From: Aquimarina sp. Aq107
GTDB lineage: Bacteria > Bacteroidota > Bacteroidia > Flavobacteriales > Flavobacteriaceae
Direction of reading: 5' to 3'
Length of the DNA: 64,000 bases
NCBI RefSeq assembly: GCF_943733665.1
Contig: NZ_OX030782.1
Span: 2,714,501 to 2,778,500, forward strand
Below, one piece after another: positions 10,475 through 52,627 of the stretch. The number at the start of each line of letters is the position of its first letter. Position 1 is the first letter of the stretch. The position numbers and the translations under genes were made by a program. Below the pieces are notes generated by a model. That model made no database searches and had not been told where the DNA came from. It was given only the letters and a program-made list of their open reading frames with translations.

Positions 10475-10524
10475 ATGATAAAAGAGATATAACAGCAATT
10501 ACAGTTATACCATTGTTGTGCATA
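10475..10524 (+). other. Candidate attI-like junction next to the recombinase gene
   Basis: The first cassette end, GTTGTGCATA (10515-10524), is the exact reverse complement of TATGCACAAC at 14508-14517. No hairpin site precedes it, as expected where an array meets its primary insertion site. The 40 bp between the recombinase stop and this GTT contain a TATAAC (10488-10493) / GTTATA (10504-10509) inverted repeat that could bind recombinase. The attI function is inferred. Confidence 0.5.
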
Positions 10525-10547
10525 ATGCGGAAATCGTGCTAAACATC

Positions 10548-10562
10548 AACATTTGAACTAAA
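10548..10562 (+). repeat. 15-bp direct repeat, left flank of the metal-uptake module
   Basis: AACATTTGAACTAAA occurs here and identically at 14454-14468, bracketing the four-gene module of cassette 1. It could be a target duplication or the footprint of a recombination event. Confidence 0.6.
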
Positions 10563-10565
10563 AAA

Positions 10566-10653
10566 GCCAACGCGCAAACAGCACATTTATTTTTTTTGCC
10601 AACGCGAAAAGCCAACGCTTAAAAAAACAAAAGAGCTGTTTCTTTGCCAACGC
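10566..10653 (+). repeat. GCCAACGC repeat cluster with hairpin, left side of module
   Basis: GCCAACGC occurs at 10566, 10598, 10611 and 10646, with an AAACAGC / GCTGTTT inverted repeat inside. A similar pair lies at 14372-14452, so the module seems framed by two related palindromic elements. The function is unknown; they may be sites of another mobile element. Confidence 0.5.
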
Positions 10654-10697
10654 TAAATCCGTTCTTGACAATCGGAATAAAAAACTTTGCAACACCA

Positions 10698-10722
10698 TTG
10701 CATTGAAATTTATTTATCTTTG
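10698..10722 (+). promoter_or_regulatory. Putative promoter of the metal-uptake genes
   Basis: TATCTTTG (10715-10722) matches the Bacteroidota -7 consensus TAnnTTTG and lies 5 bp before the ATG of the first gene. TTG triplets at 10698 and 10703 are too close for an ideal -33 element, and TTTG at 10686 is slightly too far. This is a moderate match only. Confidence 0.35.
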
Positions 10723-10727
10723 TACCA

Positions 10728-11045
10728 ATGAAATTTATAACTATCATACTATCATTATTAATTCTTGGTTTGTCAATCAAACCTTGTTCTGACGGAAATA
10801 ATGCCGAAGACCAACATCAAGAAGAAATAACTGCTGAACACAATCATAAAAATGATAGTGATGATACTTGTCCAATAACTTGTATTTGTAATTGTTGCGG
10901 AATCGCAATTACATATCAACCAATTCAAACTTTTGAATTAGGTGTAAACAATCAAATTTCTACAGAAATATTATCTGATTATCAATCAATCTACAGATTT
11001 AACTTTCATTCCAATATCTGGCAACCGCCACAATTAATTAGCTAA
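10728..11045 (+). CDS. Small cysteine-rich exported protein (DUF6660-like)
   Basis: 105 aa. It has a hydrophobic N-terminus ending near KPCSDG, a His/Glu/Asp-rich middle (AEHNHKNDSDD) and a cysteine cluster CPITCICNCCG. Small His/Cys-rich proteins of this type precede TonB receptors in Bacteroidota, and the pattern resembles what I recall as DUF6660. A metal-binding or metal-sensing envelope role is inferred from the residues and from the TonB receptor and Fur-family genes that follow. It is the first gene of the cassette 1 module, with a TATCTTTG box just upstream. Confidence 0.65.
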   Translation: MKFITIILSLLILGLSIKPCSDGNNAEDQHQEEITAEHNHKNDSDDTCPITCICNCCGIAITYQPIQTFELGVNNQISTEILSDYQSIYRFNFHSNIWQPPQLIS

Positions 11046-11097
11046 AAATATCGACTAAAAGTCAAAATTTTAAAGTTAATTAATATTTACATTTTCA

Positions 11098-13281
11098 ATG
11101 AATAAATACATATTGAGCGCAATGCTCACAATTACAATGTGCTTTTCTGCTAAAGCACAAACATCTGATATACAAATAAAAGTAATTTCAGAATCCGAAA
11201 ACGAGCCATTATTTGGAGCAACAGTATATTTTGAGGAATTAGAAAAAGGAGCAGTAACCGATTTTGACGGAATTGCAACTTTTAACGAAATTCCGAATGG
11301 CGAACACATTGTCATAGTTTCTTTTTTAGGCTTTGAAACTCTAAAAACAACTATTCAAATCCCAAGTAATTCAGACTTGATTTTCAAATTAAAAAGTGGA
11401 GGAAACGAATTGGACGAAGTTGTATTACAATCTTCAAGAAGTACAAGAACCGTAAAAAAAATTCCAACAAGAATTGAATTTATTGGAGTTGAGGAATTGG
11501 GAGAAAAAGCAATTATGAATCCAACTAATATTTCAATGGTGCTACGTGAAAGTACAGGAATACAAATGCAACAAACATCTTTAAGTAGTGGAAGTACAAA
11601 CATTAGAATTCAAGGTCTTGATGGTCGTTACACACAACTTTTAAGAGATGGATTTCCACTTTATGGAGGCTTTTCAAGTGGTTTGAGTATTTTACAAATT
11701 CCACCTTTAGACTTGCAACAATTTGAAATTATTAAAGGAAGTTCATCTACACTTTATGGTGGTGGAGCAATTGCAGGTTTAATAAATATGGTATCAAAAA
11801 CACCAGACGAAGAACCTGCTTTAGACATTATGCTTACACAAACACAAGCATTAGGAAGTACTGCAAATGTATTTTACAGCAAACGGAATGAAAAGTTTGG
11901 TATTTCGCTTTACGGTTCAGGTCACTATCAAAAAGCTTATGACCCAGAAGATGATGGTTTTAGTAATTTACCAAAAACTAAATCTATTTCATTTAATCCA
12001 AAATTCTTTTATTATCCATCTGCCAAAACTACGTTTTGGTTTGGTCTAAACGGAACTTATGACGATAGAATTGGTGGAGACATTACTAAAATAGAAAGTG
12101 GCGAAAATGGAATTCATCAATATACAGAGGAAAACATTTCAAAAAGATTGAGTAGTCAAGCAGTTTACAAAACTCAAATAGATTCTATTAGTTCTTTGAA
12201 CATTAAAAATAGTGTATCCTTTTTCGATAGAAATTTAACGATTCCCGATTTCAATTTTGATGGTAAACAAACCAACACATTTACGGAAATCACTTATCAA
12301 AGAGAGACTTCAAAAGCGGATTGGATTTTTGGAGCAAATTTATACACTTCCAACTTTGATGAAAATGATAATGCAACTTTGCAACGTGACCAAACCGACA
12401 TCACTTACGGTATGTTTGCTAACAATATTTATGACCTTTCCGATGGTTGGATTTTAGAAACTGGATTAAGAGCAGATTACAATACTGATTTTGGCTTTAT
12501 TCCACTTCCAAAAATTTCATTGCTTTATAAAAATGATAGTGGATTTTCAAGCAGAATTGGTGGTGGTTTAGGTTACAAAATTCCAGATATTTTTACAGAA
12601 GAGGCTGAATTTATAAACTTTGAAAATGTACTTGGCATTGATAAATCTTCATTAAAGGCAGAGCGTTCTTATGGTGTAAATTTTGATTTCAACTATCAGA
12701 CACGTTTATTTGAAAACATTGGTTTTTCTATTAATCAACTTTTTTACGTTACTGCTATTAATAACGGTTTGCTGTTAAATAGTACAGACAGCGGAATGTT
12801 TGCATTTGAAAATGCAACTGATGAAATTTTAAGCAAAGGCGCAGAAACAAATATAAAGTTTACTTATAAAGATTTTAGGTGGTTTTTAAATTATGCACTT
12901 ATAGACACTAAATTGAACTATTTGGCAGGAAATCCACAAAAACCACTAACCGCAAAACATAACGCAGGAAGTGTATTGATGTACGAATCTGATAAATGGA
13001 GAATTGGCTACGAAACATTTTATACAGGAAAACAGTTTTTATCAAACGGAACAAAAACGACAGATTTTGTAACTATGGGTTTACTATTAATGCGTAATTT
13101 TAAATTTGGTAGTGCATTTGTGAATTTTGAAAATTTTACAGACAGAAGACAAAGTAGGTTTTCACCTTTGGTTTTACCACCACACGAAAATCCAGAATTT
13201 CCAGAAATTTATGCGCCAACTGATGGTTTTATTTTTAGTGTAGGCATAATAATTAAACCATTTGGAAACGAAGAACATTAA
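11098..13281 (+). CDS. TonB-dependent outer membrane receptor
   Basis: 727 aa. Signal peptide MNKYILSAMLTITMCFSAKA. Residues about 22-105 form a carboxypeptidase-regulatory-like domain (ATVYFEELEKGAVTDFDGIA), about 115-230 the plug (RIQGLDGRYTQLLRDGFPLY, SSTLYGGGAIAGLINM), and the rest a beta-barrel ending in an aromatic strand. It imports a metal complex or similar small substrate across the outer membrane with TonB energy. A Fur-family regulator follows after 6 bp, which points to metal uptake, although the substrate cannot be read from the sequence. Such a large gene is unusual inside a cassette. Confidence 0.92.
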   Translation: MNKYILSAMLTITMCFSAKAQTSDIQIKVISESENEPLFGATVYFEELEKGAVTDFDGIATFNEIPNGEHIVIVSFLGFETLKTTIQIPSNSDLIFKLKSGGNELDEVVLQSSRSTRTVKKIPTRIEFIGVEELGEKAIMNPTNISMVLRESTGIQMQQTSLSSGSTNIRIQGLDGRYTQLLRDGFPLYGGFSSGLSILQIPPLDLQQFEIIKGSSSTLYGGGAIAGLINMVSKTPDEEPALDIMLTQTQALGSTANVFYSKRNEKFGISLYGSGHYQKAYDPEDDGFSNLPKTKSISFNPKFFYYPSAKTTFWFGLNGTYDDRIGGDITKIESGENGIHQYTEENISKRLSSQAVYKTQIDSISSLNIKNSVSFFDRNLTIPDFNFDGKQTNTFTEITYQRETSKADWIFGANLYTSNFDENDNATLQRDQTDITYGMFANNIYDLSDGWILETGLRADYNTDFGFIPLPKISLLYKNDSGFSSRIGGGLGYKIPDIFTEEAEFINFENVLGIDKSSLKAERSYGVNFDFNYQTRLFENIGFSINQLFYVTAINNGLLLNSTDSGMFAFENATDEILSKGAETNIKFTYKDFRWFLNYALIDTKLNYLAGNPQKPLTAKHNAGSVLMYESDKWRIGYETFYTGKQFLSNGTKTTDFVTMGLLLMRNFKFGSAFVNFENFTDRRQSRFSPLVLPPHENPEFPEIYAPTDGFIFSVGIIIKPFGNEEH

Positions 13282-13287
13282 AAAAAT

Positions 13288-13704
13288 ATGCAAAAAATAG
13301 AAGAATTTTTAGAATCAAAAGATATTCGAGCAACTGCAATGCGTTTATTAATATATAAGTTCCTTGCCGAAAAACAAGTTGCAGTTACATTAAGTGATAT
13401 AGAAAATGCTTTTGAGAAAGCAGATAGGACAACATTATACAGAACTATTAAAACATTTGAAGAAAAAGAAATTGTGCATCAAATAGACGATGGCACAGGA
13501 ATTACGAAATATGCTTTGTGTGAAAAAGGTTGTAATTGTGAGATTGAAACCGATTTGCATTTACATTTTCATTGTAATAACTGTAACGAAACCATTTGTT
13601 TAACAGAACATAAAATCCCTCAAATAAAAGTGCCTGATGGATTTGTTTCAGAAAACGTAAACTTAGTTGTAAAAGGCATTTGCGATAAATGTAGCGGACA
13701 ATAA
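13288..13704 (+). CDS. Fur-family metalloregulator
   Basis: 138 aa. The N-terminal winged helix includes DRTTLYRTIKTFEEKEIVHQ as the recognition region. The dimerisation/metal domain contains HLHFHCNNC and CDKC, the paired CxxC structural zinc site, plus a regulatory-site His set. It probably represses the adjacent TonB receptor when metal is replete. It could be Fur (iron) or Zur (zinc); the sequence alone does not decide. It lies 6 bp after the receptor gene, suggesting co-transcription and autoregulation. Confidence 0.88.
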   Translation: MQKIEEFLESKDIRATAMRLLIYKFLAEKQVAVTLSDIENAFEKADRTTLYRTIKTFEEKEIVHQIDDGTGITKYALCEKGCNCEIETDLHLHFHCNNCNETICLTEHKIPQIKVPDGFVSENVNLVVKGICDKCSGQ

Positions 13705-13757
13705 ATGCACTTCCTTTGCATTGATTATTATAGCATTTTTACATTAAATTAGAAATT

Positions 13758-14342
13758 ATGTTATTATTCGCTTATTTTATATTGTATTTTTTATTGGTCT
13801 TTATATTAAGGTCTGTACTACTTTGGAAAAAAACTGGAATAAATCCATTTACATTTGAAAAAACAGATAATGCACACGATTATAATGGAAAGGTTTTTGC
13901 ATTTATCACAGTTCTTGAGTTAATTGTTGTAGGAATCTATGCTTTCAAAGAAGAATGGTATGAATATTTACTTCCTTTTTGGTATTTGGAAAATCAAACT
14001 TTACAGAAAATTGGTTGGTTACTTTTGTTGGTATCGCTGATTTTTGTTTGGTTTTCTCAAAGCCAAATGGCAAATTCTTGGAGAATCGGAATTGATGAAA
14101 ACAACAAAACCAAATTGGTAACAAAAGGAATATTTTCAATTTCAAGAAACCCTATATTTTTAGGAATAATGATTACGAATATTGGGTTATTCCTTGTAAT
14201 TCCTAATGCATTTACATTACTAATAATTTCATTATCTACTTTAAGCGTAAATACACAAATACGATTGGAAGAAGAATTTTTAAAACGTGAATTCGGAAAT
14301 GAATATATAGAATACGCTGAAAAAGTAAGGAGATGGATTTAG
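13758..14342 (+). CDS. Isoprenylcysteine carboxyl methyltransferase-family membrane protein
   Basis: 194 aa with about five transmembrane segments. The C-terminal half has TKGIFSISRNPIFLGIM and RLEEEFLKREFGNEYIEY, the SAM-binding pattern of the ICMT/PEMT membrane methyltransferase family. The substrate is unknown. Bacterial members often sit near metal resistance or uptake genes, and here it follows a Fur-family gene and is probably in the same transcript. It is the last gene of the module, before the second GCCAACGC element. Confidence 0.78.
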   Translation: MLLFAYFILYFLLVFILRSVLLWKKTGINPFTFEKTDNAHDYNGKVFAFITVLELIVVGIYAFKEEWYEYLLPFWYLENQTLQKIGWLLLLVSLIFVWFSQSQMANSWRIGIDENNKTKLVTKGIFSISRNPIFLGIMITNIGLFLVIPNAFTLLIISLSTLSVNTQIRLEEEFLKREFGNEYIEYAEKVRRWI

Positions 14343-14371
14343 TTATAAAATTAAAATAGTTAATCGGAATT

Positions 14372-14452
14372 GCCAACGCATAAGCCATACACATTTACAG
14401 TCGCATCATCCAAGCTTCGCCAAAACTGTAAAAGAGTATGTCTTGCCAACGC
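14372..14452 (+). repeat. GCCAACGC hairpin element, right side of module
   Basis: GCCAACGC at 14372 and 14445 bracket an inverted repeat (CATACACATTTACAGT / ACTGTAAAAGAGTATG). It mirrors the left cluster at 10566-10653 and lies directly before the second 15-bp direct repeat. Confidence 0.5.
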
Positions 14453-14453
14453 T

Positions 14454-14468
14454 AACATTTGAACTAAA
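14454..14468 (+). repeat. 15-bp direct repeat, right flank of the metal-uptake module
   Basis: AACATTTGAACTAAA is identical to 10548-10562. If the sequence between the copies is removed, about 95 bp of short ORF-less cassette remains, bounded by GTTGTGCATA and TATGCACAAC. Confidence 0.6.
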
Positions 14469-14510
14469 TAACAAACATCGGAAAACCAAGCTGAACGTGA
14501 AAAGCACTAT

Positions 14511-14707
14511 GCACAACAATGTATATAAAACATAGCTATTACAGGCTTTCCGAGAGGTTTTTGCCTATTTATTAAGTACGCCAAATTTTTATTTTTGTAT
14601 ATTTAAAAATTAAAAGATAAATAGAAAAAATAAAAATTCGGCTCGTGTTAAATCCGAAAAGTTAGTGTTTATTTATACGCTACGTTTCATATACTAGACC
14701 GTTGTAC
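14511..14707 (+). repeat. attC-like site 1 (F3-like)
   Basis: Left core GCACAAC, right core GTTGTAC. Outer arms GTATATAAAACATAGC and GCTACGTTTCATATAC pair with two mismatches. It closes the composite cassette 1. Confidence 0.8.
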
Positions 14708-14864
14708 AACATTCCCCACATCAGAATCCGATTAATTCCTCGAGCTAACGAGTAGAAAAAAGACTCTGAAAAAGGAAAAATATAATTAACTGAATATCAA
14801 TAACTAAATTTGACGTTAGTCGAGATTGGAGTAAATCTCATAATTAAATCAAAACTATATTCTA

Positions 14865-15464
14865 TTGGAGACTAAAAAAGAAGAATTTGAATTTGTTTAT
14901 GTGGAGAACAATGGAACAGTTCGTGAATTGGATAATGAAGAAATAGAATACTTGCAAACTGAATTCCAACCAGGAGATGGAGCTAGACCATATATAAAAA
15001 GTAGCTATAAACAACGCACACCAAATAATAAAATGTTTGGATACATACTAAGAGATGACGTTCCGGAGGATATTAAGATAATAAGAACTGATCTAAGATA
15101 CCTAGAAATTCGATTTCCAATTAATATTTATGATTCTGGAAAAGCAATAGAGTTACCAGTAGGAATATATAATGTAAAAGTTATTGGAGGTTGGGATATT
15201 TCAATTGGTAATTTCACATTCACATTAAAAAATATGAAGAATGGAAATATCATTAATCCTGAAATAACAAATTGGAGATTTCAATCATATGAATCAGGGG
15301 AAAGAGCAAAAAAAATAATGGTTTTAGATATTCCCGAAAGAGGAGATTATATCATCGAATTTAAAAATCAAGAGAGCTTAAAAGTAAGACCCTCGAATTT
15401 GATAATTACTAGATTATTCGAAAAACAAATCCCAAATGATGAATTACGGATTTGGATTGGTTAA
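14865..15464 (+). CDS. Hypothetical protein, cassette 2
   Basis: 199 aa from a TTG start, the first plausible start in the frame. I do not recognise the family. It is hydrophilic and predicted mostly beta, with no signal peptide or membrane segment, and carries a RELDNEEIEYLQTEFQPGDG segment near the N-terminus. It is the only gene of its cassette, with a 160-bp leader between the right core at 14701 and the start. The stop lies 12 bp before the left core at 15477. Confidence 0.65.
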   Translation: METKKEEFEFVYVENNGTVRELDNEEIEYLQTEFQPGDGARPYIKSSYKQRTPNNKMFGYILRDDVPEDIKIIRTDLRYLEIRFPINIYDSGKAIELPVGIYNVKVIGGWDISIGNFTFTLKNMKNGNIINPEITNWRFQSYESGERAKKIMVLDIPERGDYIIEFKNQESLKVRPSNLIITRLFEKQIPNDELRIWIG

Positions 15465-15476
15465 AAACAAAACGTT

Positions 15477-15647
15477 GTACAACAATATATATGTGATCAT
15501 AGCAGCTAAGTGATGAATCGAATGATCAGTGTGTATTTGCAATGGCGCAATGCTTGCAAAATGGAAAAGTTAGCAACCAATGCGCGGATTTATCCAAAAT
15601 TAGGGTAACATTTTGCGCTGCTACGACACATATATTAAACGTTACCA
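15477..15647 (+). repeat. attC-like site 2 (F1)
   Basis: 171 bp. Left core GTACAAC, right core GTTACCA. Outer arms ATATATGTGATCATAGCAG and CTGCTACGACACATATAT pair with bulged bases. Inner stem GCGCAATGCTTGC / GCAACCAATGCGC. Confidence 0.88.
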
Positions 15648-15663
15648 CACATTAACTAAAACA

Positions 15664-16284
15664 ATGAGCAAAAATAAATTCATACAAAAATTCCAAAATA
15701 AGACGAACTCGGAATTAGAGTATATCATTGAAAACAAAAAGAATTATAACGAACAAGCTGTTTCTGCTTCTATACAAATTTTAAAAGACAGAAATGGTCA
15801 ATCATTAGAATTAGAAACAATAGAAAACGAGATTGCTGCTGAGAAAGAAAAAAAAGAATTAAATAAGAAACGAGCAATAGAAGAAGAAAAAAAGAAAAGC
15901 AATCTAACAGATGACCCCAATGCACCTGAATTACATTCGAAAAGAGTGATTACAGTTTTTGCTGGATTATTTTCTACAATTTTTGGAGCAGTTTTACTCG
16001 CTTATAATCTAAAACAAATAGAAAACATAAAAGGTCGAAATCAAGTTTTGATTTTTGGTACTTTATACACAATTGCTTCTATCATAATAATTAACCTAAT
16101 TGATATAAAAGCAAATCTAGCGATTGGTTTCAATTTTGGAGGAGCAGCGATTTTAACTGAATATTTTTGGAATAAATTTCTAGGAAAAGAATTTAAACAT
16201 AGAAAAAGAAGCTGGGTTAAACCAGCCATAATTTCTATAATTATTACAATTCCGTTTATTTTAGCTCTGATATATGGCGAGTAA
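15664..16284 (+). CDS. Membrane protein with N-terminal charged helix, cassette 3
   Basis: 206 aa from the ATG at 15664; an in-frame start at 15613 lies inside the site and would be read from hairpin sequence. The N-terminal part (FIQKFQNKTNSELEYIIENK) is helical and Lys/Glu-rich, followed by about three transmembrane segments in the C-terminal half. The segment of about 40 residues ending in ILKDRN resembles the tail of the cassette 16 protein (FQSKPESELKSIADEN...RILKTK), so the two cassettes share a small domain. Function unknown. Confidence 0.7.
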   Translation: MSKNKFIQKFQNKTNSELEYIIENKKNYNEQAVSASIQILKDRNGQSLELETIENEIAAEKEKKELNKKRAIEEEKKKSNLTDDPNAPELHSKRVITVFAGLFSTIFGAVLLAYNLKQIENIKGRNQVLIFGTLYTIASIIIINLIDIKANLAIGFNFGGAAILTEYFWNKFLGKEFKHRKRSWVKPAIISIIITIPFILALIYGE

Positions 16285-16290
16285 AACGTG

Positions 16291-16479
16291 TGGTAACAAC
16301 ACCTATGCGATAATGCGGGCTTTGGTGTAATCGAAAGGTCATTGTCTATTTGGTTTATCGCCAAAGATTTAAATTTAGTATTTTAGAAAAAATAAACACA
16401 AAATATAAACTTTGGCTCAGTGTTATCTCGAAAACCTGTGATTTTCTGCTTCCGCACTACGCATAGCTAAACGTTCTAC
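16291..16479 (+). repeat. attC-like site 3 (F2)
   Basis: 189 bp. Left core TGGTAAC (GTGTGGTAAC, exact complement of the cassette start GTTACCACAC), right core GTTCTAC. Arms CCTATGCGATAATGCGG and CCGCACTACGCATAG. Confidence 0.88.
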
Positions 16480-16491
16480 ACCATTACACAA

Positions 16492-17019
16492 TTGACACGA
16501 ACTAAAATACATACTACAAGAAAACTTGAAAAGTTGATAAAAAAAATGATTTCAACTGACCAAAATGCCGAATATGGAAAACTTGGAAAGTGGAACGCAA
16601 CGGTTTTCTATGTGGAACGAAAAAAATGTTGGTTGTTAACAAATGGGATTACAAAATACAACGTAATCTTGACGGACATAAAAGCTAAGGATTTAAAGAA
16701 TATTGAATCTATATTTAAGAATGAATTTTACGCTCAACTAATTTATGACGGAATAATAACGGAATTTGAAAATCTGGACTCAATTATTGGTGGGCTTGAT
16801 TTCTTGCCCACAGATAATGACAGAAGTACTACGGCATTTCAAAACCAAAGACTTTATGAGCTTGATTGGTGGAAATACGATTTTGGGACTTTAGAAAATA
16901 TGCCGATCAAAGAGTTAACAAACAGAATAAACACAAGTCCTATCCATATTGGTAAGGGAAGAAAAATGTCTGACTATACGGATTCGATAAGAGAAATGAG
17001 AAAGATAATAACGGAATAA
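16492..17019 (+). CDS. DUF6933-like hypothetical protein, cassette 4
   Basis: 175 aa from a TTG start 13 bp after the right core. The opening (TTRKLEKLIKK), the GKWNATVFYVERKKCWLLTN segment and the following VILTDIKAKDL resemble the small family I recall as DUF6933, whose members have a similar N-terminal Lys-rich helix and WNA..F....K..L.. pattern. Biochemical role unknown. It is the single gene of its cassette, and the stop is 7 bp from the next left core. Confidence 0.65.
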   Translation: MTRTKIHTTRKLEKLIKKMISTDQNAEYGKLGKWNATVFYVERKKCWLLTNGITKYNVILTDIKAKDLKNIESIFKNEFYAQLIYDGIITEFENLDSIIGGLDFLPTDNDRSTTAFQNQRLYELDWWKYDFGTLENMPIKELTNRINTSPIHIGKGRKMSDYTDSIREMRKIITE

Positions 17020-17026
17020 AAACGGT

Positions 17027-17253
17027 GTAGAACAACACCTATGCGATAATGCGGAATTTAGGTTCAATCGAAAGGTTATTGTCTATTTGGTTTGTCGCCA
17101 AAGATTTAAATTTAGTATTTTAGAAAAGATAAAAACCCGCCTGCCTCTATTTCGATTTTGAGGCGGGCAGGCAAAACATAAACTTTGGCTAAGTGCTGGC
17201 TCGAAAAACCTGTGATTTTTTGCTCCCGCACTACGCATAGCTAAACGTTAGCA
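17027..17253 (+). repeat. attC-like site 4 (F2) carrying a GC-rich palindrome
   Basis: 227 bp. Left core GTAGAAC, right core GTTAGCA. It matches sites 3, 17 and 21 except for an extra 36-bp GC-rich hairpin (CCCGCCTGCCTC / GAGGCGGGCAGG, 17136-17171) inserted in the loop half. Confidence 0.87.
17136..17171. repeat. GC-rich palindrome inserted within attC-like site 4
   Basis: The stem CCCGCCTGCCTC / GAGGCGGGCAGG is absent from the other three F2 sites, which read straight from AAAAA to CAAAACATAAAC. It is probably a small mobile palindrome, or a terminator acquired later. Confidence 0.55.
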
Positions 17254-17259
17254 AATATT

Positions 17260-18589: not shown

Positions 18590-18602
18590 TACATTGAAGA
18601 AC

Positions 18603-45622: not shown

Positions 45623-45742
45623 AGATAACACCGTATATAATTAATTGCTTGATTCTTGTCTACTTATGAGAATTCTCACGGATTTTCTATTTGGTTTGTA
45701 TTTACTAAATTACGTGTTTAACCACGCAACTAACCGTTAACT
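45623..45742 (+). repeat. attC-like site 32 (F6)
   Basis: 120 bp. Left core AGATAAC (one mismatch to AGCTAAC), right core GTTAACT. Left arm CCGTATATAATTAATTGCTTG. The right arm near ACCACGCAACTAACC is only weakly complementary. Confidence 0.7.
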
Positions 45743-45763
45743 ACAATCTAAACTGAAACATCG

Positions 45764-46360: not shown

Positions 46361-46528
46361 CATCATATATGAAATCAGAGCAAAAATTTAATGTTAAATC
46401 GAAAGGTCATTTCCCTTTTTGCTATAGCGCTAAGTTTTTATAAATTAACAAGAAATAAAAATGCGCAGAAAAATCGAAAAACAGGGTAACATTTTGCCCT
46501 GCTACGACACATAAATTAAACGTTAGGC
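46355..46528 (+). repeat. attC-like site 33 (chimera of F4 left half and F1 right half)
   Basis: 174 bp. Left core AGTTAAC (TGTAGTTAAC complements GTTAACTACA), right core GTTAGGC. The left half has GAAATCAGAGC (F4) while the right half has GGTAACATTTTGCCCTGCTACGACAC (F1), so outer arms pair poorly. Confidence 0.82.
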
Positions 46529-46575
46529 CCCATTAAAAAAAGCAATTGAACACAAATTATCTAAACAAAAAAATC

Positions 46576-46977
46576 ATGAAAAATGTAGCTATACTTATTA
46601 CATGTCTATTATCAGTTCAATTTGGAATCGCTCAAGAAAATAATAATGCCGCAATAGAAATTGTGAACAAAAGAATGGAATCATACAATCAGCACAATTT
46701 TGTGGACTTCATAAAACTCTACGCTGAAGATGTCAAAATCTATACTTACCCTGAAAAATTGTTAGGAACTGGAATAGAAAATATTTCTTCGATTTTTAAA
46801 CCAAAATTTGAATCTAAATCAATTCAGGTTGAAATTGTTAGCCAGATGTATAATGGAAAACACGTTATTAATCACGAAATAGTTACCGAAAATAGTATTG
46901 AGACAAAATACATTTCTATTTATGAAATCAAAGATGGATTGATATCGAGCGTAAGATTTGTAAGGGATTATGAATAA
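46576..46977 (+). CDS. SnoaL/NTF2-like secreted protein, cassette 34
   Basis: 133 aa from ATG 46576; the TTG at 46546 precedes it in frame. Signal peptide ending GIAQ, then an NTF2-like fold: IVNKRMESYNQHNFVDFIKLYAEDVKIYTYP and a C-terminal TKYISIYEIKDGLISSVRFV. SnoaL-like proteins bind small ligands or catalyse simple reactions; the ligand is unknown. The signal peptide places it in the periplasm. Confidence 0.78.
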   Translation: MKNVAILITCLLSVQFGIAQENNNAAIEIVNKRMESYNQHNFVDFIKLYAEDVKIYTYPEKLLGTGIENISSIFKPKFESKSIQVEIVSQMYNGKHVINHEIVTENSIETKYISIYEIKDGLISSVRFVRDYE

Positions 46978-47012
46978 CTTACTCTTGTAAAATTGAGAGG
47001 AAAAAAACGGAA

Positions 47013-47206
47013 GTCTAACAAGACATAAAAAACATAGGGCTGTTTAGTCTAGACCAAAGGTCTTTGTTAATTAACAAAGTTCGCCAAATATAAAATTTGA
47101 CATTTTCGAAAAATGATAAAAGTAAAATATTTATATTTAACTCAGTACCAACCTGAAACGTATCGCTTATCACCTGCCCTACGTTTCATATACGAGACCG
47201 TTGACA
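47013..47206 (+). repeat. attC-like site 34 (F3)
   Basis: 194 bp. Left core GTCTAAC (one mismatch to the expected GCCTAAC), right core GTTGACA. Arms ACATAAAAAACATAGGGC and GCCCTACGTTTCATATAC. Confidence 0.82.
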
Positions 47207-47248
47207 GTAATTAAAGACCAGAACTTCCTAACATAGTTGGATTAAAAT

Positions 47249-47728
47249 ATGAACAATAAAAATGAAACAAATATCAGAATTGAATTATTAACAAGAGAGA
47301 ATGAGTTTTTAGAAAAAGGAGTAAATTACTTTTGGAAATGTTGGGGAAATGATTCTAATTTCAATTTTTACAATGACTGTATTAAGAATTCACTATCTGA
47401 TGGGGTTTCTCTGCCAAAATTTTATATACTTTTAAATGGAAAAGGGATTATTGGTTCTTATGCTTTACTAACAAATGACATAATAAGTAGACAAGATTTA
47501 TTACCTTGGTTTGCTTGTTTATTTATTGATGAGCAATTTAGAAATAAAGGTTATGCTGAAAAACTATTAGTTCACGGACTGAAAGAAGCTAATAATAAAG
47601 GGTTTGAAAAAATATACCTATCAACTGATTTAAAAAATTTTTACGAAAAAAAAAGGTGGGATTTATTCTCTCATGGATATAATTTGAGTGGAGAGAATTT
47701 TAAAATTTATGTTAAATCAACAAAATAA
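47249..47728 (+). CDS. GNAT acetyltransferase, cassette 35
   Basis: 159 aa. The acetyl-CoA loop is visible as FRNKGYAEKLLVHGLKEA, with the preceding PWFACLFIDEQ strand and following IYLSTDLKNFYEKKRWDLF. It probably acetylates a small molecule or peptide in the cytoplasm. Substrate unknown. Alone in its cassette. A second, unrelated-looking GNAT is found in cassette 37. Confidence 0.88.
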   Translation: MNNKNETNIRIELLTRENEFLEKGVNYFWKCWGNDSNFNFYNDCIKNSLSDGVSLPKFYILLNGKGIIGSYALLTNDIISRQDLLPWFACLFIDEQFRNKGYAEKLLVHGLKEANNKGFEKIYLSTDLKNFYEKKRWDLFSHGYNLSGENFKIYVKSTK

Positions 47729-47736
47729 CAAACCAC

Positions 47737-47865
47737 TGCTAACACTATACATAGCAAATAGGGTAATTTAAGTCGCTTCGAAAAACCTATGCTTGTTTGC
47801 TGTGTTGCCAAATCTAAACTAATTGTTTATTTCCACTCCTAAATACCATATATTTAACGTAGTAA
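47737..47865 (+). repeat. attC-like site 35 (diverged)
   Basis: 129 bp. Left core TGCTAAC (two mismatches to the complement of GTTGACA). The right core reads GTAGTAA, probably GTTGTAA with a T-to-A change. Left arm CTATACATAGCAAATAGGG. Confidence 0.65.
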
Positions 47866-47869
47866 CACA

Positions 47870-48349
47870 TTGAGAAAAATACTCACTTACATATTATTAC
47901 TCACGATTTGTTTCGGGTGTTTTGAGAAAAAAACCGAATGGAAAACTGAAAGAAGCGCAATTATTTTTTTTAGTTCTGAACCAAAAAACGAAACATTCAC
48001 TCTGACATTTAAAAAAAATGAGAACTCTCTGATTTACCAATATGTAAGTCACATTGACACATCTAAAACTATTTTTATAAAAAAGACTTTAGAATCAAAC
48101 TTTATTCTTTTCGGATCTGAGAAGTTTATAAAAACTGACAAAAAACCTTTCAAAAATGAAAAGCTTAATGATCTAGAATTTGAATTTTATAATATAGAAA
48201 ACCCTATTACCGATGGAACTGGCCCAATATTATTTAATCCAACATATGGGCTTTTAGCTATAAATAATGTTTTCGGACCAACAATCATATTTCTTGACGA
48301 AAAGAATGACACTATAACCCAACAAATAATTACTAAATTGAATGAATAA
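47870..48349 (+). CDS. Lipoprotein, cassette 36
   Basis: 159 aa from a TTG start. The signal peptide MRKILTYILLLTICFGCFEK ends with a lipobox Cys. A soluble domain follows, with an acidic Asp/Lys pattern and TFTLTFKKNENSLIYQYVSH strands. No family recognised. The start lies 11 bp from the right core GTAGTAA, so no leader remains. Confidence 0.65.
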   Translation: MRKILTYILLLTICFGCFEKKTEWKTERSAIIFFSSEPKNETFTLTFKKNENSLIYQYVSHIDTSKTIFIKKTLESNFILFGSEKFIKTDKKPFKNEKLNDLEFEFYNIENPITDGTGPILFNPTYGLLAINNVFGPTIIFLDEKNDTITQQIITKLNE

Positions 48350-48356
48350 AAACATG

Positions 48357-48447
48357 TTACAACATATACATGATCATAGCAACTAAATAATTAATCTAAA
48401 GTCCATTACTTTTAATCCTCGAACTAATCATAGCCGAGACGTTGGCA
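48357..48447 (+). repeat. attC-like site 36 (shortened F1-like)
   Basis: 91 bp. Left core TTACAAC, right core GTTGGCA. Left arm ATATACATGATCATAGCAAC; right part GAACTAATCATAGCCGAGAC. The middle of an F1 site seems deleted. Confidence 0.7.
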
Positions 48448-48459
48448 AAAATTTGAGAA

Positions 48460-48939
48460 ATGAACATTGAATACAAAACATATACGAAAAGAGACAAATC
48501 TGATGTTTTGAAAATGATGACCTCATTCAATGAAATTTATGATTACGATTTTGATCCGAAAATTGGAGAGAAAAACCTAATTGACTTTACTTCCAATGAA
48601 ATACTAGGAAGGCTATATCTAATTAAATACCAGCAAAGCAATATTGGCTATATAGTACTTTCATTTGGTTTTAGCTTTGAATATGAAGGCAGAGACGCAT
48701 TTATTGATGAATTTTATATAAAGGAGAATTATAGAAATCAGGGAGTAGGAAAACTAACTATGGATTTTATCGAATTGGAATCAAAAAAATTGAATGTCAA
48801 TGCTATCCATTTAGAAGTTGAATCTCATAATTCAAAAGCAAATAAACTGTATATGAGTAAAGGGTATAAATCCAACAATCGAATTTTATTAACAAAAAAA
48901 ATAAAAACTACTGCCAACAATAGTTATAAAAACAAATGA
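48460..48939 (+). CDS. GNAT acetyltransferase, cassette 37
   Basis: 159 aa. The CoA-binding region is clear: FIDEFYIKENYRNQGVGKLTMDFIE, here cited in pieces as FIDEFYIKENYRNQG and VGKLTMDFIE, followed by IHLEVESHNSKANKLYMSKG. It probably acetylates a small substrate. Its last residues (TANNSYKNK) are encoded in the remnant attC site and overlap the next gene by 4 bp. This suggests that the original stop was lost by a deletion. Confidence 0.87.
   Translation: MNIEYKTYTKRDKSDVLKMMTSFNEIYDYDFDPKIGEKNLIDFTSNEILGRLYLIKYQQSNIGYIVLSFGFSFEYEGRDAFIDEFYIKENYRNQGVGKLTMDFIELESKKLNVNAIHLEVESHNSKANKLYMSKGYKSNNRILLTKKIKTTANNSYKNK
48912..48935 (+). repeat. attC-like site 37 remnant
   Basis: TGCCAAC (48912-48918) is the exact complement of the cassette start GTTGGCA, followed by AATAGTTATAAAAACAAATG. 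The rest of the hairpin and the right GTT are missing, so two cassettes are fused. Confidence 0.6.
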
Positions 48940-49430
48940 GAAAAACAATCTACACGCTTATACTACTCACAAGTTTAAAGAGTTTTAGTCAAGAATTATT
49001 TGAACACGAATTCGATAAGAATATCAGCATCAATGTGATTGACAATTCTGAAGAAGGCGAAATTGCTAACGGTAAATTCATAAAAGGGACATTTGAAAAT
49101 GAAACTGTAGTTTATCTCAAATCAAAAAAGAAAGGATTAAAAAATTTAAACGGGAAAAAACTAGAAAAACTTTTTGATGGAATTAAGGACGGTGCTCTAA
49201 AATCTAGTAAAGGAAATTTAATTAGTGAGGACTTAGTAAAAATAAATGAGCTTGATATTTTCAATTATAAATATTCTGCGAAATTGAATGGAGAAAAAAA
49301 GATAATTGAAAACTACGTCTTCTTATATAACGAGAATATCTACACAATCCAATTCATGAATAATAAAGATGAATTTGATAAAAACACAGAATTCAGAAGG
49401 GGAATAATCGAATCAATAAAACTGAAGTAA
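48936..49430 (+). CDS. Secreted protein of unknown function, fused cassette 38
   Basis: 164 aa. Signal peptide MRKTIYTLILLTSLKSFSQE. The mature part is a mixed alpha/beta domain with KGTFENETVVYLKSKKKGLK and a C-terminal EFRRGIIESIKLK. No family recognised. It overlaps the acetyltransferase stop by four bases across a remnant site, so it now depends on that upstream cassette for expression. Confidence 0.65.
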   Translation: MRKTIYTLILLTSLKSFSQELFEHEFDKNISINVIDNSEEGEIANGKFIKGTFENETVVYLKSKKKGLKNLNGKKLEKLFDGIKDGALKSSKGNLISEDLVKINELDIFNYKYSAKLNGEKKIIENYVFLYNENIYTIQFMNNKDEFDKNTEFRRGIIESIKLK

Positions 49431-49438
49431 AAAACGTT

Positions 49439-49590
49439 TTACAACACTATAAATGTGATTATAATTATTTATTGATAGATCGAAAGATTTTTATTTATTA
49501 GGGTGTAAGCTTACAAAACGTAAAAGTTAGCAACAAATGCACTAATAAATAAAAAAAACCTTGCTACGACATATTCATAAGACGTTGGCA
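49439..49590 (+). repeat. attC-like site 38 (F1-like, shortened)
   Basis: 152 bp. Left core TTACAAC, right core GTTGGCA. Inner AAGTTAGCAAC is kept, but the flanking F1 sequence is truncated. The right arm reads TTGCTACGACATATTC. Confidence 0.72.
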
Positions 49591-49608
49591 ATAACTAGAA
49601 ACCAAAAA

Positions 49609-50772
49609 ATGAAAATCACACATTCGATATTACTAATTATAATTATACAATTACCAATACTATTATTTTCACAAAAGAATAGTTCTATGACTACAAATGG
49701 AACTCTTCTAATTATGGGTGGAGACTCCACTAATGACTACTTTATTTCAGAGTTTGCAGGTTTAATTGGTAGTATTGAAAGCGAGATTGTTATAATTCCT
49801 ACTGCTATCGAAGATAAATATCTAGACTCACAAAGTGACATTAATATTTTAAAAAAACCATTTACTGACATTGGTTTTAAAAATATTAACATCGTGCATA
49901 CAAGAGAAATAAAGATTGCCAATAGTGATTCCTTAAATAATATATTGTTGTCTGCTGATGGTGTTTGGATAACTGGAGGAAGACAATGGCGTTTAGCAAA
50001 AGCTTATAATGGTACTAAAGTTCAAAACTCCCTAAAAGCCCTTTTAAATAAAGGTAAATTAATTGCTGGAACTTCTGCAGGAGCTTCTATAATGGGAGAT
50101 GTTCTTGTTCGTGGTGATTCTAAAACTCAAACTATTATGCTTGGAGATTACCAAAATGGATTTGAGTTTATCAGTAATTGCGCAATAGACCAACATCATA
50201 TTGCAAGAAATAGACAATTTGATATGTTTGAATTAAAAAATGAAAAACCAGATGTATTAGGCATTGGAATTGATGAAAATACAGGAATCATTGTAAGCGA
50301 AGATAAATTGAGAGTTATTGGAAAAAGTTATGTTACCATCTATGACAACACAAGATGGTCAGAGGAAAGAGATACAATCTATCAACTAAAAAAGAATGAT
50401 AAACAATTTTATACATTATCAAACGGATACGAATATGATATCATAAAGCGAAAAGTTATTCAGAAAAATGACAGAGAAAAATCATCTTACAATAAAGAGA
50501 TGATGAAAAAAATAACTGGTACATATCAACAATCTAAAGGATTAGAATTTGGTCAAGATTTAAAAATAATAGTGACATTAGATAACGGCGAGCTCTATTT
50601 TGAGCAATCTTGGAATAAGGCTAAGTATAAAGTAGAGTATCATTATTTAAGTACATTTTTTAGACCAAATAGCATTTCGGTTTATCACTTTAATAAAGAT
50701 AAAACAGGAGCTTTCAGTTCTTTTTGGTTTTTCCAATATGCTTATGGGGGATCAAATTGGGTAAAACTATAG
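49609..50772 (+). CDS. Cyanophycinase-like S51 peptidase, cassette 39
   Basis: 387 aa from ATG 49609. Signal peptide, then a class I glutamine-amidotransferase-like fold: GTLLIMGGDSTNDY, VIIPTAIEDKYLDS and the nucleophile elbow LIAGTSAGASIMGD (Ser). Cyanophycinase-like members are secreted serine peptidases; the exported location fits a signal peptide but the substrate is not known. A C-terminal extension of about 90 residues (MKKITGTYQQSKGLEFGQDL) is extra. Confidence 0.85.
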   Translation: MKITHSILLIIIIQLPILLFSQKNSSMTTNGTLLIMGGDSTNDYFISEFAGLIGSIESEIVIIPTAIEDKYLDSQSDINILKKPFTDIGFKNINIVHTREIKIANSDSLNNILLSADGVWITGGRQWRLAKAYNGTKVQNSLKALLNKGKLIAGTSAGASIMGDVLVRGDSKTQTIMLGDYQNGFEFISNCAIDQHHIARNRQFDMFELKNEKPDVLGIGIDENTGIIVSEDKLRVIGKSYVTIYDNTRWSEERDTIYQLKKNDKQFYTLSNGYEYDIIKRKVIQKNDREKSSYNKEMMKKITGTYQQSKGLEFGQDLKIIVTLDNGELYFEQSWNKAKYKVEYHYLSTFFRPNSISVYHFNKDKTGAFSSFWFFQYAYGGSNWVKL

Positions 50773-50804
50773 AATACTCCAAAAAAATAACTGTTGCCAA
50801 CAAA

Positions 50805-50933
50805 ATGTATAGTTTATTGCTATGGATTTTCATATCGAAAATTCATACACATGAATTATCTTTAACAACTACGAACAATACTAGCATACCTTCTTGGAAC
50901 TAATCATATATTTAAAGTTATAATACATTATCG
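50805..50933 (+). repeat. attC-like site 39 (diverged)
   Basis: 129 bp. Left core TGCCAAC (exact complement of GTTGGCA), right core GTTATAA preceded by TTTAAA. The arms are strongly eroded. Confidence 0.6.
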
Positions 50934-50941
50934 AAACTCAT

Positions 50942-51448
50942 ATGCATAGAATATTAATCACATTTATTTTTACTTTCTTTTTTGCGAATATCTACTCTCA
51001 AGAGAGTTATGAGAAATTACCATTTACGAAAACCAATTGTCCAACTATTATTATTGAAAAAGACATTATTGCGAATGAAAGTGCAATCGAAACAAAAAAA
51101 GAATTAATACTTGAAATGAGCATTTTGAAAGATAAACCAAATAGAAAAAAGCATAAATTCTACAACCTGACTGAAAACGGAATTGTTTTTGTCAGTTTAA
51201 AAACAAAAATTGCTTTTAAAACACAGGCTGAACTGAACAATTTTTTCGAAATTGAAGAAAATAACAGAATTTATATAAATGGATATTTAATAGAGAATTC
51301 TGATTACAAAATTGCGACTGAAAGTATTATTGAAATTGAATTAGTTATACCTAATTCTGAAAACAAATTAGATAGTAAAACAATTAATGTTTGGACTTTG
51401 GCTAAAAAAGAAAGAACAAATGGTTGTGTAAAACAGAATGTGAATTAA
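50942..51448 (+). CDS. Secreted protein of unknown function, cassette 40
   Basis: 168 aa. Signal peptide MHRILITFIFTFFFANIYSQ. The middle has NRIYINGYLIENSDYKIATE and the C-terminus is Asn/Lys-rich with a single Cys near NGCVKQNVN. Patterns such as IYINGYLIENSDY resemble plug-like beta domains but no barrel is present. It is probably periplasmic. The start lies 15 bp from the right core. Confidence 0.62.
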   Translation: MHRILITFIFTFFFANIYSQESYEKLPFTKTNCPTIIIEKDIIANESAIETKKELILEMSILKDKPNRKKHKFYNLTENGIVFVSLKTKIAFKTQAELNNFFEIEENNRIYINGYLIENSDYKIATESIIEIELVIPNSENKLDSKTINVWTLAKKERTNGCVKQNVN

Positions 51449-51465
51449 AATAACGTTGCGTTACA

Positions 51466-51561
51466 CCATAACACAGCATATATGATCATAGTAGTTAAGT
51501 AATGAATATAAAAATAAATCAACAATTTACTCTGCTACCAAACATATATGAAACGTTAGTT
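51466..51561 (+). repeat. attC-like site 40 (shortened F1)
   Basis: 96 bp. Left core CCATAAC, right core GTTAGTT. Arms CATATATGATCATAGTAG and CTCTGCTACCAAACATATATG. The F1 middle is deleted. Confidence 0.72.
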
Positions 51562-51577
51562 CTAACAAAACAATGAG

Positions 51578-52456
51578 ATGAAAAAAAGACACTTTGTATT
51601 AGCGCTCACTTTAGTTTTCTTTCTTGATTTATCAGGACAAGAAACCAAATATAAGCCTGTTAAATATCCAGCAACTTATGAAGCAAAAATTGACTTAATC
51701 TATACTAAAATAGATGATTGGGAAGGACGTATAGATATTTATTCTAATCCTGTTTCTCAAAAACCTACCCCAATTGTGATTAATATCCATGGAGGAGGTT
51801 GGAATCATGGTGTTAAGGAATCTAAAACTGGTTTTTCTAGTTTTTTTAAAGAAGGGTTTGCTGTTGCAAATGTAGAATATCGTTTGGTTAATATTTCAAA
51901 AGCTCCAGGAGCAATTGAAGACATACGATGTGCTTTAATCTATTTGCAGAAACATGCTAAAGAATTAAATATTGATACTCGCAAAATTGTTATCATGGGT
52001 GGTTCTGCCGGAGGACATTTAGCTCTCATGGCGGGTTTATTGAATAATAATAGAAAGTTTGATAGAGACTGTGCATACGATGGTAATATTAAAATAGCTG
52101 CAATTATTGATAAATATGGACCGACCGACCTAACTCTACTGAAAAATAAAGGTTCTGTAAAAAAATGGTTGGGTGATGGTTATAAAAATAGAAAGTTTAT
52201 TGAATCTGTTTCGCCATTGTATTACGTAGATAAAAATAGCCCTCCTGTATTGATAGTACATGGCACTAAAGACCCAATTATTCCTTATGAACAATCATCT
52301 CTTCTTTATGAAAAATTAAAGGAACATGATGTCAAAACAGAATTCATATCAATTGAAGAAGGAGTCCATGGTAAATTTTCAAAAGAGCAGCGTTTAATGT
52401 TTAATAAAAAAATGTGGTCGTTTTTAGAAGAACTTGAATTAAAAAAGAATCATTAA
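51578..52456 (+). CDS. Alpha/beta-hydrolase esterase, cassette 41
   Basis: 292 aa. Signal peptide, then the HSL-type motif VINIHGGGWNHG (oxyanion hole), the nucleophile elbow IMGGSAGGHLAL and the Asp/His pair near VHGTKDPIIPYEQ and EGVHGKFSKE. It is a secreted or periplasmic esterase. Substrate unknown. It is the last cassette before the decayed end of the array. Confidence 0.9.
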   Translation: MKKRHFVLALTLVFFLDLSGQETKYKPVKYPATYEAKIDLIYTKIDDWEGRIDIYSNPVSQKPTPIVINIHGGGWNHGVKESKTGFSSFFKEGFAVANVEYRLVNISKAPGAIEDIRCALIYLQKHAKELNIDTRKIVIMGGSAGGHLALMAGLLNNNRKFDRDCAYDGNIKIAAIIDKYGPTDLTLLKNKGSVKKWLGDGYKNRKFIESVSPLYYVDKNSPPVLIVHGTKDPIIPYEQSSLLYEKLKEHDVKTEFISIEEGVHGKFSKEQRLMFNKKMWSFLEELELKKNH

Positions 52457-52500
52457 AATTCATAAGAGACATTAAAATCACACTCTAATAAAAAAACCTA

Positions 52501-52627
52501 GGACAACAACTTATATAATTAATTACTTTGAAAAGTATTTATTTAGGGAATTTCGTAGGAATATTTTATAGCTTACAAATGTTTACTAAATTAGTTGTTT
52601 ACAAGTTCATTAACTATATGTAACACA
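52501..52627 (+). repeat. attC-like site 41, decayed (F6)
   Basis: The sequence resembles sites 30 and 32: GGACAACAACTTATATAATTAATTACTTT (52501 on) through GTTTACAAGTTCATTAAC. Neither core is intact and no cassette follows. This is the apparent distal end of the array. Confidence 0.55.

Follow-up and report, generated by a model that had tools for sequence, protein, structure and literature searches.

An integron-like cassette array headed by a tyrosine recombinase without the I2 domain in Aquimarina sp. Aq107

The chromosome of the marine Bacteroidota Aquimarina sp. Aq107 possesses, within the 64,000-nucleotide stretch analysed here (contig NZ_OX030782.1, positions 2,714,501 to 2,778,500; hereafter the window), about 41 cassettes and 41 palindromic sites in a single orientation, and yet the tyrosine recombinase which heads this array lacks the I2 domain, the protein part thought indispensable for integrons. 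Judged from its sequence, the array very probably represents a chromosomal cassette-capture system which works like an integron but depends on an integrase of another class. According to the cited passages of a previous study, I2 is held to be necessary for cassette capture, confers the ability to act on single strands, and is present in no other protein, with intermediates lacking (PMC7790495). In the open-licence literature, preprints excluded and as far as titles and abstract openings tell, no cassette arrays or I2-less integron integrase were found described in Flavobacteriia or Bacteroidia.

Organization of the cassette array

The array extends on the plus strand from the G of the first core (10515) to the end of the last site (52630). 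Sites were searched for with R2, a covariance model of 46 sites that all came from relatives and not from the window. R2 yielded 31 matches at E ≤ 10, 30 of them at E ≤ 0.11, all on the plus strand between 14515 and 52630, and no site in the rest of the 64 kb window. Accordingly, 31 of the 41 placed sites are R2 matches (E ≤ 10), and the remaining 10 were placed by repeat families and inverted ends. The best cassette chain, whose score combines a hairpin score and an end score, reached 267 in the array, whereas the flanking parts of the window gave 3.2 and 9.6; the loose chain of the array includes false links in its distal half.

Cassettes in the first half of the array mostly start with GTT plus seven further bases, and these 10 bases return at the far end as their exact reverse complement, the sequence being specific to each cassette. 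Among the 39 scorable cassettes (two of the 41 have no candidate end), the ends match at 10/10 in 19 and at no fewer than 9/10 in 25, whereas start and end pairs taken from different cassettes reach at least 9 in 27 of 1482 cases; end positions were picked for the best match within about 16 bases of the site ends, which favours partner pairs. Ends of at least 9/10 are found in 22 of 26 cassettes numbered 1-26 versus 3 of the 13 scored among cassettes 27-41, where some distal ends may be mis-picked. Such clustering near the recombinase is as expected if new cassettes enter beside it.

An earlier note on this DNA had described about 41 unidirectional cassettes with cassette-specific inverted ends of up to 10 bp, and both descriptions are borne out by the extent of the array, the strand of the R2 matches and the end scores. 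Its site lengths of 68-227 bp come close to the 60-219 bp measured here from AAC to GTT. The claim that AAC/GTT is invariant nearly stands, with GTT at the listed place in 37 of the 39 listed cores and ATT in one (41668), and GTTRRRY, the canonical attC consensus, is indeed often broken, being kept in three of those 39. Several site families are evident from repeats; the note had put their number at six or more. Although its integron-like array is supported, the note overlooked the recombinase, which lies outside its coordinates, and missed as well the absence of I2, the different strand mark of the sites and the wide spread of related systems in Bacteroidia.

The recombinase and its I2-less family

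An intact tyrosine recombinase gene (9332-10474, plus strand) directly precedes the array. Its product matches PF00589 (145 bits) and PF13495, scores above the cut-off of NF040815, the XerA/integron family (228.3 versus 220), and falls below that of TIGR02249, the integron integrase family (203.8 versus 265). Many relatives bear the automatic NCBI name "site-specific tyrosine recombinase/integron integrase", which is the name of NF040815 and thus a family label, no description of the system. The closest named relatives belong to Aquimarina species, and the best solved ones are 4a8e and 5hxy. Residues R239, K264, H328, R331, H354 and Y363, which we take to be the catalytic set, are invariant across 15 aligned sequences, and an N-terminal extension of about 110 residues contains no Pfam domain.

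The interval between the KGNKDR and HTLRH motifs, where IntI carries its I2 insert, measures 72 residues in the window recombinase and 72-73 in 9/9 close members of its family, versus 114 in 12/12 canonical IntI from other Bacteroidota; in five other recombinases of this genome it measures 78-85. In the set of proteins used for a tree, it is 72-73 residues long in 46/46 proteins which are neither IntI nor Xer, including remoter array-heading ones, and 114-115 in 7/7 canonical IntI, including the solved Vibrio enzyme. By this interval length, the IntI-specific I2 domain is absent from the recombinase and from 46/46 proteins of the wider family, and for that reason the system, though it works like an integron, falls outside the formal definition of one. 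The cited passages of two surveys recognise integron integrases by the I2 domain (PMC2426708, PMC9668308), so that I2-less enzymes would be passed over and their arrays at best seen as integrase-less clusters.

The tree itself (57 rows, 380 columns), whose rows were picked by likeness to the window protein, places canonical IntI in one group (support 100/100), and a node with support of 95/94 unites this group with the I2-less proteins to the exclusion of XerA and Xer. The I2-less proteins appear as one clade with support of 44/46 only, so that IntI may have gained I2 or the I2-less proteins may have lost it.

The attI-like site and the structure of the attC-like sites

Behind the recombinase gene lies a palindromic attI-like site. 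Among 58 loci tried, four others with early contig ends having been dropped, the first core was found by motif in 42 (16 had no motif match), 35-107 nt (median 45) past the recombinase stop codon, and in these 42 the gap between the end of a palindrome and the core has a median of 6 nt. The palindrome score is 8 or more in 29 of the 42 loci versus 1.7% of shuffled stretches, and its sequence varies between genomes with the symmetry kept. That of the window is imperfect (score 6), and those of three congeners are perfect. A recombinase gene with an adjacent attI-like site, recognised here by sequence, is the architecture of an integron.

The attC-like sites contain an inner and an outer stem. 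In the inner stem (16 pairs, 46 aligned sites), 81.5% of cells are paired versus 60.9% in shuffled alignments, double changes number 135 versus 44.5, and the covariation score is 0.457 versus 0.133, a slid partner giving at most 0.087. One aligned pair is A.C in 45/45 sequences with letters there. In the outer stem, pair 11 is A.C in 227 of 271 sites of the I2-less arrays and in 0/40 canonical cassettes, and Watson-Crick pairing is seen at pairs 12, 13 and 14 in 238, 242 and 204 of the 271, with several pair types; only the first 10 pairs played a part in site selection, pairs 12-14 none.

An A.C mismatch on the top strand is a G.T wobble on the bottom strand. Over the 271 sites, which come from 45 loci, 530 wobbles fall on the bottom strand and 20 on the top strand; another alignment gave 752 versus 31, and one site per locus 87 versus 5. 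Such counts are not independent, since the sites are related. The earlier note had also proposed folding the bottom strand, and among 21 clear window sites folded as excised sites, it is more stable than the top strand in 17 (18/24 when three false sites, omitted here, are included).

In canonical integrons, extrahelical bases are read by the I2 domain of the integrase. For comparison, 14 IntI loci of other Bacteroidota were taken, of which seven gave clear arrays and were used; they were oriented by inference from the IntI side and run through the same code as the I2-less arrays. Two or more extra bases in the 5' arm occur in 24 of 33 canonical sites versus 22 of 271 sites of the I2-less arrays, and two or more bottom-strand wobbles in 0/33 versus 178/271. 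By these counts, where I2 is missing the paired extrahelical bases are uncommon too and another strand mark is present, so the array sites do not conform to canonical attC in the paired extrahelical bases of the 5' arm. R2 had no hits in 12 canonical IntI loci, though at about 3.6 kb apiece these may contain few sites.

At the level of sequence, these features strongly suggest a single-strand mechanism. The recombinase would take up circular cassettes at the attI-like palindrome that follows its gene, and would excise or reshuffle them at the attC-like sites, each most likely used as a folded single bottom strand. The predicted hairpin would consist of an outer stem of about 14 pairs and the inner covarying stem, with some seven outer-stem pairs free to take any complementary sequence and so giving rise to the cassette-specific ends. 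The conserved G.T wobbles would tell the bottom strand from the top and, perhaps together with the N-terminal extension, replace recognition by I2 and extrahelical bases. It may even be, as a tentative and rather doubtful reading, that I2-less recombinases reading the bottom strand through G.T wobbles form a separate single-strand class which predates I2, capture having come first and I2 being a later refinement in IntI.

Alternatively, the enzyme could act like XerA on palindromic double-stranded sites, the hairpins being a by-product of inverted binding arms. The lack of I2 fits such an enzyme, and so does the attI-like site, itself a palindrome of the kind bound by dimers. On the other hand, complementarity of free sequence between the two ends of a cassette has no evident use in double-stranded DNA, the asymmetry of 530 to 20 and the conserved A.C pairs make most sense on a folded strand, and a group II intron is inserted at the base of the bottom-strand hairpin; we consider a double-strand mechanism unlikely.

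Linkage of the sites to the recombinase and distribution

The relatives analysed as named loci are the best 80 of 568 encoding stretches, and include Flavobacteriaceae, Cytophagales, Saprospiraceae, Prolixibacteraceae and Bacteroidales; many are metagenome-assembled genomes (MAGs). R2 was run on 62 of these 80 loci and found 106 sites, 106/106 on the strand of the recombinase, with 104 downstream of it and two upstream; 11 of the 46 rows of R2 came from these 62 loci and match by construction. R2 sites are present in 28 of the 62 loci, in 26 of the 42 with at least 1.5 kb downstream, and in 17 of 21 among the closest relatives. The only two upstream sites both lie in one locus (L053:905-1031 and 2595-2717).

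Cassette chains never score above 2.8 upstream of the recombinase (77 of 80 loci scored), and downstream reach at least 15 in 17 of 60 scored loci, with values up to 79. Chains above 15 follow close recombinase relatives in 18 of 20 regions (shuffles at most 11.2), and chains of at least 20 follow remoter recombinases of 34-46% identity in 7 of the 12 regions that span 4 kb or more (shuffles at most 12.8). Contig ends fall within 700 bp downstream of the recombinase in 28 of 80 named loci and within 700 bp upstream in 3 of 80, an excess as repeats would cause. As a separate observation, related recombinases in a Nitrospirae MAG (L126) and a Bacteroidia MAG (L115) are followed by chains of 16.8 and 15.8 (shuffles 0 and 6.6) whose sites R2 does not detect; these might be additional families of sites beyond the class, or the contigs might be misbinned.

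Within the genus, 48 of 66 genomes encode a relative of the recombinase (E ≤ 1e-90), as do 113 of 199 genomes of the family (E ≤ 1e-60) and 75 of 295 Bacteroidia genomes (E ≤ 1e-85), the last being matches to the protein only; 13 of those 75 score above 500 bits and the rest are remoter. Not every recombinase of the wider group heads an array. Canonical IntI exceeds its cut-off in one of 295 genomes of the class, and in 105 of 395 genomes of the phylum as GTDB draws it. For comparison, the cited part of the IntegronFinder 2.0 study lists a single complete integron for Bacteroidetes proper, that of Salinibacter (PMC9024848), and a passage of a review counts Bacteroidota among the phyla with integrons (PMC8618304).

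The distribution bears on another explanation, namely that the array is part of an ordinary integron, a cluster of attC sites lacking an integron integrase (CALIN) moved in trans by canonical IntI, with the neighbouring recombinase as a XerA-type bystander. The NCBIfam result agrees with it, since the recombinase belongs to NF040815 and falls below the integron integrase cut-off, and so do arrays without an intact recombinase on the same chromosome and recombinase relatives without a nearby array. Against this, the genome contains no match to IntI at E ≤ 1e-60 and canonical IntI is that rare in the class, 104 of 106 sites lie behind the recombinase and all on its strand, the attI-like site adjoins the 3' end of the recombinase gene itself, and paired extrahelical bases as in canonical attC occur in few of the array sites. 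A bystander recombinase was rejected on the linkage of the sites, the enzyme's own attI-like site and the lack of IntI in the genome, and the explanation as a whole is very improbable.

Cassette mobility and breakpoints

In four congeners, the alignment with the window continues through the attI stretch as far as the core, beyond which one (G248) carries the same first cassette and three carry others, giving the change at the core for which the earlier note had proposed comparing relatives. Cassette 1 of G248 is 95.5% identical to that of the window over 4180 bases versus 86.5% for the recombinase region, and the second cassettes of the two have only site sequence in common.

Segments shared within and between arrays were examined in 60 arrays with 499 cores, counting only ends within 1500 bp of a core. 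For segments of at least 350 bp, 44 of 91 3' ends and 32 of 99 5' ends lie within 15 bp of a core, versus 136 of 3718 random points. Many of the pairs are copies within L043, without which the counts are 26 of 66 (3') and 18 of 74 (5'). Identical repeated cassettes also occur, for instance in L144, where 517 bp at 100% identity end at -1 and +3 from a core, and cassettes are common to different genera at 84-87% identity (L153/L181 and L171/L180).

As in integrons, then, cassette bounds lie at G|TT and R'' and R' are complementary within a cassette; the boundaries coincide with the GTT cores, so that the outcome which the earlier note had named as fatal to an integron, bounds never falling at them, did not arise. 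No sign of independent transposition was seen in the junctions read, where target duplications were not searched for. It is hardly credible that the sites are non-autonomous transposons or repetitive extragenic palindromic (REP)-like repeats and that the array grew by transposition and duplication, a reading which the sequence families of the sites and the insertion sequences in the arrays would suit and which was rejected, since the outer ends are complementary within a cassette and not identical between repeats, junctions share attI and change after the core, and gene-carrying segments recur with ends at cores.

Weight of the evidence

Several observations weigh against a single-strand cassette system run by this recombinase. 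On the side of the sites, related sites carry their A.C pairs at the same few fixed positions, so that these are not independent, and part of the asymmetry could reflect sequence read by a protein rather than strand choice; strand bias is slight, 11 to 7, in L086 and L100, both from one remoter group; and the 271 sites do contain extra unpaired bases, numbering 93 on the 5' arm and 137 on the 3' arm. On the side of mobility, only 9 of 39 (3') and 7 of 46 (5') ends of segments shared between different loci fall near a core, and in the pooled count 67 of 99 and 47 of 91 ends lie away from a core, several such segments being insertion sequences. The between-locus fraction, being below the pooled count, slightly reduces our confidence. 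As to linkage, four of the 21 close relatives with at least 1.5 kb downstream have no R2 site (L059, L068, L075 and L079), though L059 has a chain; L034 and L040 are without a convincing chain, although L034 matches the window intron plus site 25 at 82%; and no array lies within about 10 kb of some remoter recombinases (L108, L125 and L129), as in 5 of the 12 remoter regions.

Taken with the evidence above, we conclude that the array is real, that it is an integron in function, and that it belongs to a widespread variant whose integrase lacks the defining protein feature. Large arrays headed by natural I2-less integrases make the use of single-stranded hairpins by tyrosine recombinases directly testable, and these systems point to a large cassette reservoir in Bacteroidia, where integrons were thought almost absent.

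Cassette contents, introns and further arrays

The coordinates of the array and its neighbouring features are given in Table 1. Among 47 open reading frames (ORFs) of the array, leaving out the reverse transcriptase (RT) of an intron and two ORFs behind the array, 21 have no Pfam family at E ≤ 0.01. Those with families are typical accessory genes, encoding GNAT acetyltransferases, a methyltransferase, an HNH nuclease, TPR and LRR proteins, peptidases, a PF00144 beta-lactamase family protein, and a TonB receptor accompanied by a Fur-like regulator. Cassette 11 (22663-24032) encodes proteins that match each of the three components of candidate defence system PDC-M64 (10 ORFs scanned), and cassette 10 (21559-22280) an 87-aa protein beside a DarG-like macro-domain protein, which may form a toxin-antitoxin-like pair. 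The adjoining short cassettes 12 and 13 (24092-25219) are about 99% identical and contain no ORF of at least 80 aa; on this identity they are read as a recent cassette duplication.

The group II intron (35053-37060, minus strand) lies antisense just outside the hairpin base of site 25 and is a passenger of the array. A second copy, 99.95% identical, lies in the second array described below (L197:9696-11703), antisense at the same relative place of another site, and L034 has an 82% match to the intron plus site 25 behind its recombinase. The intron matches RF00029 and RF01999 only in Rfam, and an Rfam search of six arrays gave no further introns. According to the cited part of a previous study, group IIC-attC introns insert after or into the bottom-strand attC hairpin in the same orientation (PMC7923331); the window intron, antisense at the base of the bottom-strand hairpin, resembles them in position.

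Six repeated elements in arrays of relatives look, by eye from their proteins, like insertion sequences. Elements judged by eye to be IS110-, IS1182- and IS3-like occur in the arrays of L036, L044, L033, L042 and L144/L145. In L044, one end of a segment in common with the IS110-like element lies 7-10 bp away from a core, and this element may target the sites.

A genome-wide R2 search, whose first pass scored 150 of 3088 candidates, also gave matches elsewhere: a second cluster spans 3.730-3.759 Mb, a small one lies at 514-517 kb, and there is a single partial match at 2.911 Mb. The second array (L197 and L198), on the same chromosome, comprises 13 sites of the same type at E ≤ 0.01 and lacks an intact recombinase over the stretches examined. 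At L198:18367-18453, 29 residues match the recombinase at 62% identity and may be a relic of one. The cluster at 514-517 kb (L199) comprises two isolated sites at E ≤ 0.01 on the minus strand. Upstream of the window array, a Flavo-1 RNA (Rfam RF01705) lies at 8729-8831 on the minus strand, between a helicase-like gene (RecG by eye) and the recombinase.

Table 1. Features of the cassette array and its recombinase in the window
Feature	Position	Strand	Evidence
Tyrosine recombinase (putative cassette integrase without I2), ~380 aa	9332..10474	+	Pfam, NCBIfam, aligned residues
attI-like site: imperfect palindrome and core GTT (core G 10515)	10488..10517	+	four congeners align up to core
Cassette array, ~41 cassettes	10515..52630	+	chain scores, R2, inverted ends
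Cassette 1: DUF6660, TonB receptor, Fur-like regulator, PEMT-type methyltransferase	10516..14701	+	in G248; other first cassette in G205, G212, G223
attC-like site 1	14515..14703	+	R2 E 7.5e-8; ends
attC-like site 2	15481..15643	+	R2 E 8.5e-8; ends
attC-like site 3	16295..16475	+	R2 E 6.1e-4; ends
attC-like site 4	17031..17249	+	10/10 ends; no R2 match
attC-like site 5	18426..18585	+	R2 E 2.1e-7; ends
attC-like site 6	19232..19417	+	R2 E 3.8e-9; ends
attC-like site 7	20056..20218	+	R2 E 4.6e-7; ends
attC-like site 8	20585..20747	+	R2 E 1.5e-6; ends
attC-like site 9, short family	21467..21526	+	ends, fold; no R2 match
attC-like site 10	22297..22481	+	R2 E 2.1e-9; ends
attC-like site 11, short family	24047..24106	+	R2 E 5.5e-6; fold, ends
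attC-like site 12	24496..24661	+	R2 E 4.4e-8; ends
attC-like site 13 (cassette a duplicate of cassette 12)	25054..25219	+	R2 E 6.1e-8; repeat, ends
attC-like site 14	25861..26021	+	repeat family, ends; no R2 match
attC-like site 15	26372..26533	+	R2 E 1.7e-7; ends
attC-like site 16	27066..27228	+	R2 E 7.9e-7; ends
attC-like site 17	27811..27992	+	ends; no R2 match
attC-like site 18	28638..28824	+	R2 E 1.4e-8; ends
attC-like site 19	29289..29451	+	R2 E 8e-7; ends
attC-like site 20	30180..30342	+	R2 E 7.7e-7; ends
attC-like site 21	31137..31317	+	R2 E 4.5e-4; ends
attC-like site 22	32490..32652	+	R2 E 2.2e-8; ends
attC-like site 23, short family	33406..33466	+	fold, ends; no R2 match
attC-like site 24	34268..34430	+	R2 E 1.5e-5; ends
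Group II intron, RT/maturase ORF 35147-36406	35053..37060	-	bounds are those of the stretch shared with its copy
attC-like site 25	37068..37230	+	R2 E 2e-6; ends
attC-like site 26	37964..38151	+	R2 E 7.1e-5; ends
attC-like site 27	39885..40007	+	R2 E 1.1e-9
attC-like site 28	40851..40975	+	R2 E 9.5e-5
attC-like site 29, core ATT at 41668 in otherwise conserved site, probably dead	41507..41670	+	repeat family, ends; no R2 match
attC-like site 30	42326..42448	+	R2 E 1e-18
attC-like site 31	43179..43341	+	repeat family; no R2 match
Possible site 32 (weak)	44165..44258	+	R2 E 6.9
attC-like site 33	45627..45747	+	R2 E 5.8e-15
attC-like site 34	46359..46524	+	repeat family, ends; no R2 match
attC-like site 35	47017..47202	+	R2 E 1.3e-4
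attC-like site 36	47741..47861	+	R2 E 0.014
attC-like site 37 (degenerate)	48358..48443	+	repeat family, ends; no R2 match
attC-like site 38	49443..49586	+	repeat family, ends; no R2 match
attC-like site 39	50799..50919	+	R2 E 4.4e-7; ends
attC-like site 40 (degenerate)	51470..51557	+	R2 E 0.11
attC-like site 41, distal end of the array	52505..52630	+	R2 E 0.0073

Comparison with known systems

Similar to canonical integrons, such as the sedentary chromosomal ones of Vibrio, the system of the window comprises an integrase gene, an adjacent insertion site and unidirectional cassettes with breakpoints at G|TT, and shares with them outer and inner hairpin arms, cassette-specific complementary ends, a large chromosomal array and a group II intron at the base of a hairpin. 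Unlike canonical IntI, its integrase has no I2 and carries an N-terminal extension. Its sites differ from canonical attC in that the strand is marked mainly by G.T wobbles instead of paired extrahelical bases, in an outer stem of about 14 pairs with a conserved wobble at pair 11, and in the rarity of GTTRRRY (3/39). Moreover, the integrase gene points toward the array and the attI-like site is a palindrome, neither of which is the case in a canonical integron.

Archaeal XerA acts on one dif site. The window recombinase resembles XerA and the NF040815 family in a catalytic domain without the insert and in its score above the NF040815 cut-off, whereas, unlike archaeal XerA, its family heads cassette arrays in many genomes. 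As to CALINs, the second array at 3.730-3.759 Mb is like them in having sites without an intact integrase in the stretches read, while the window array, unlike a CALIN, has its own recombinase.

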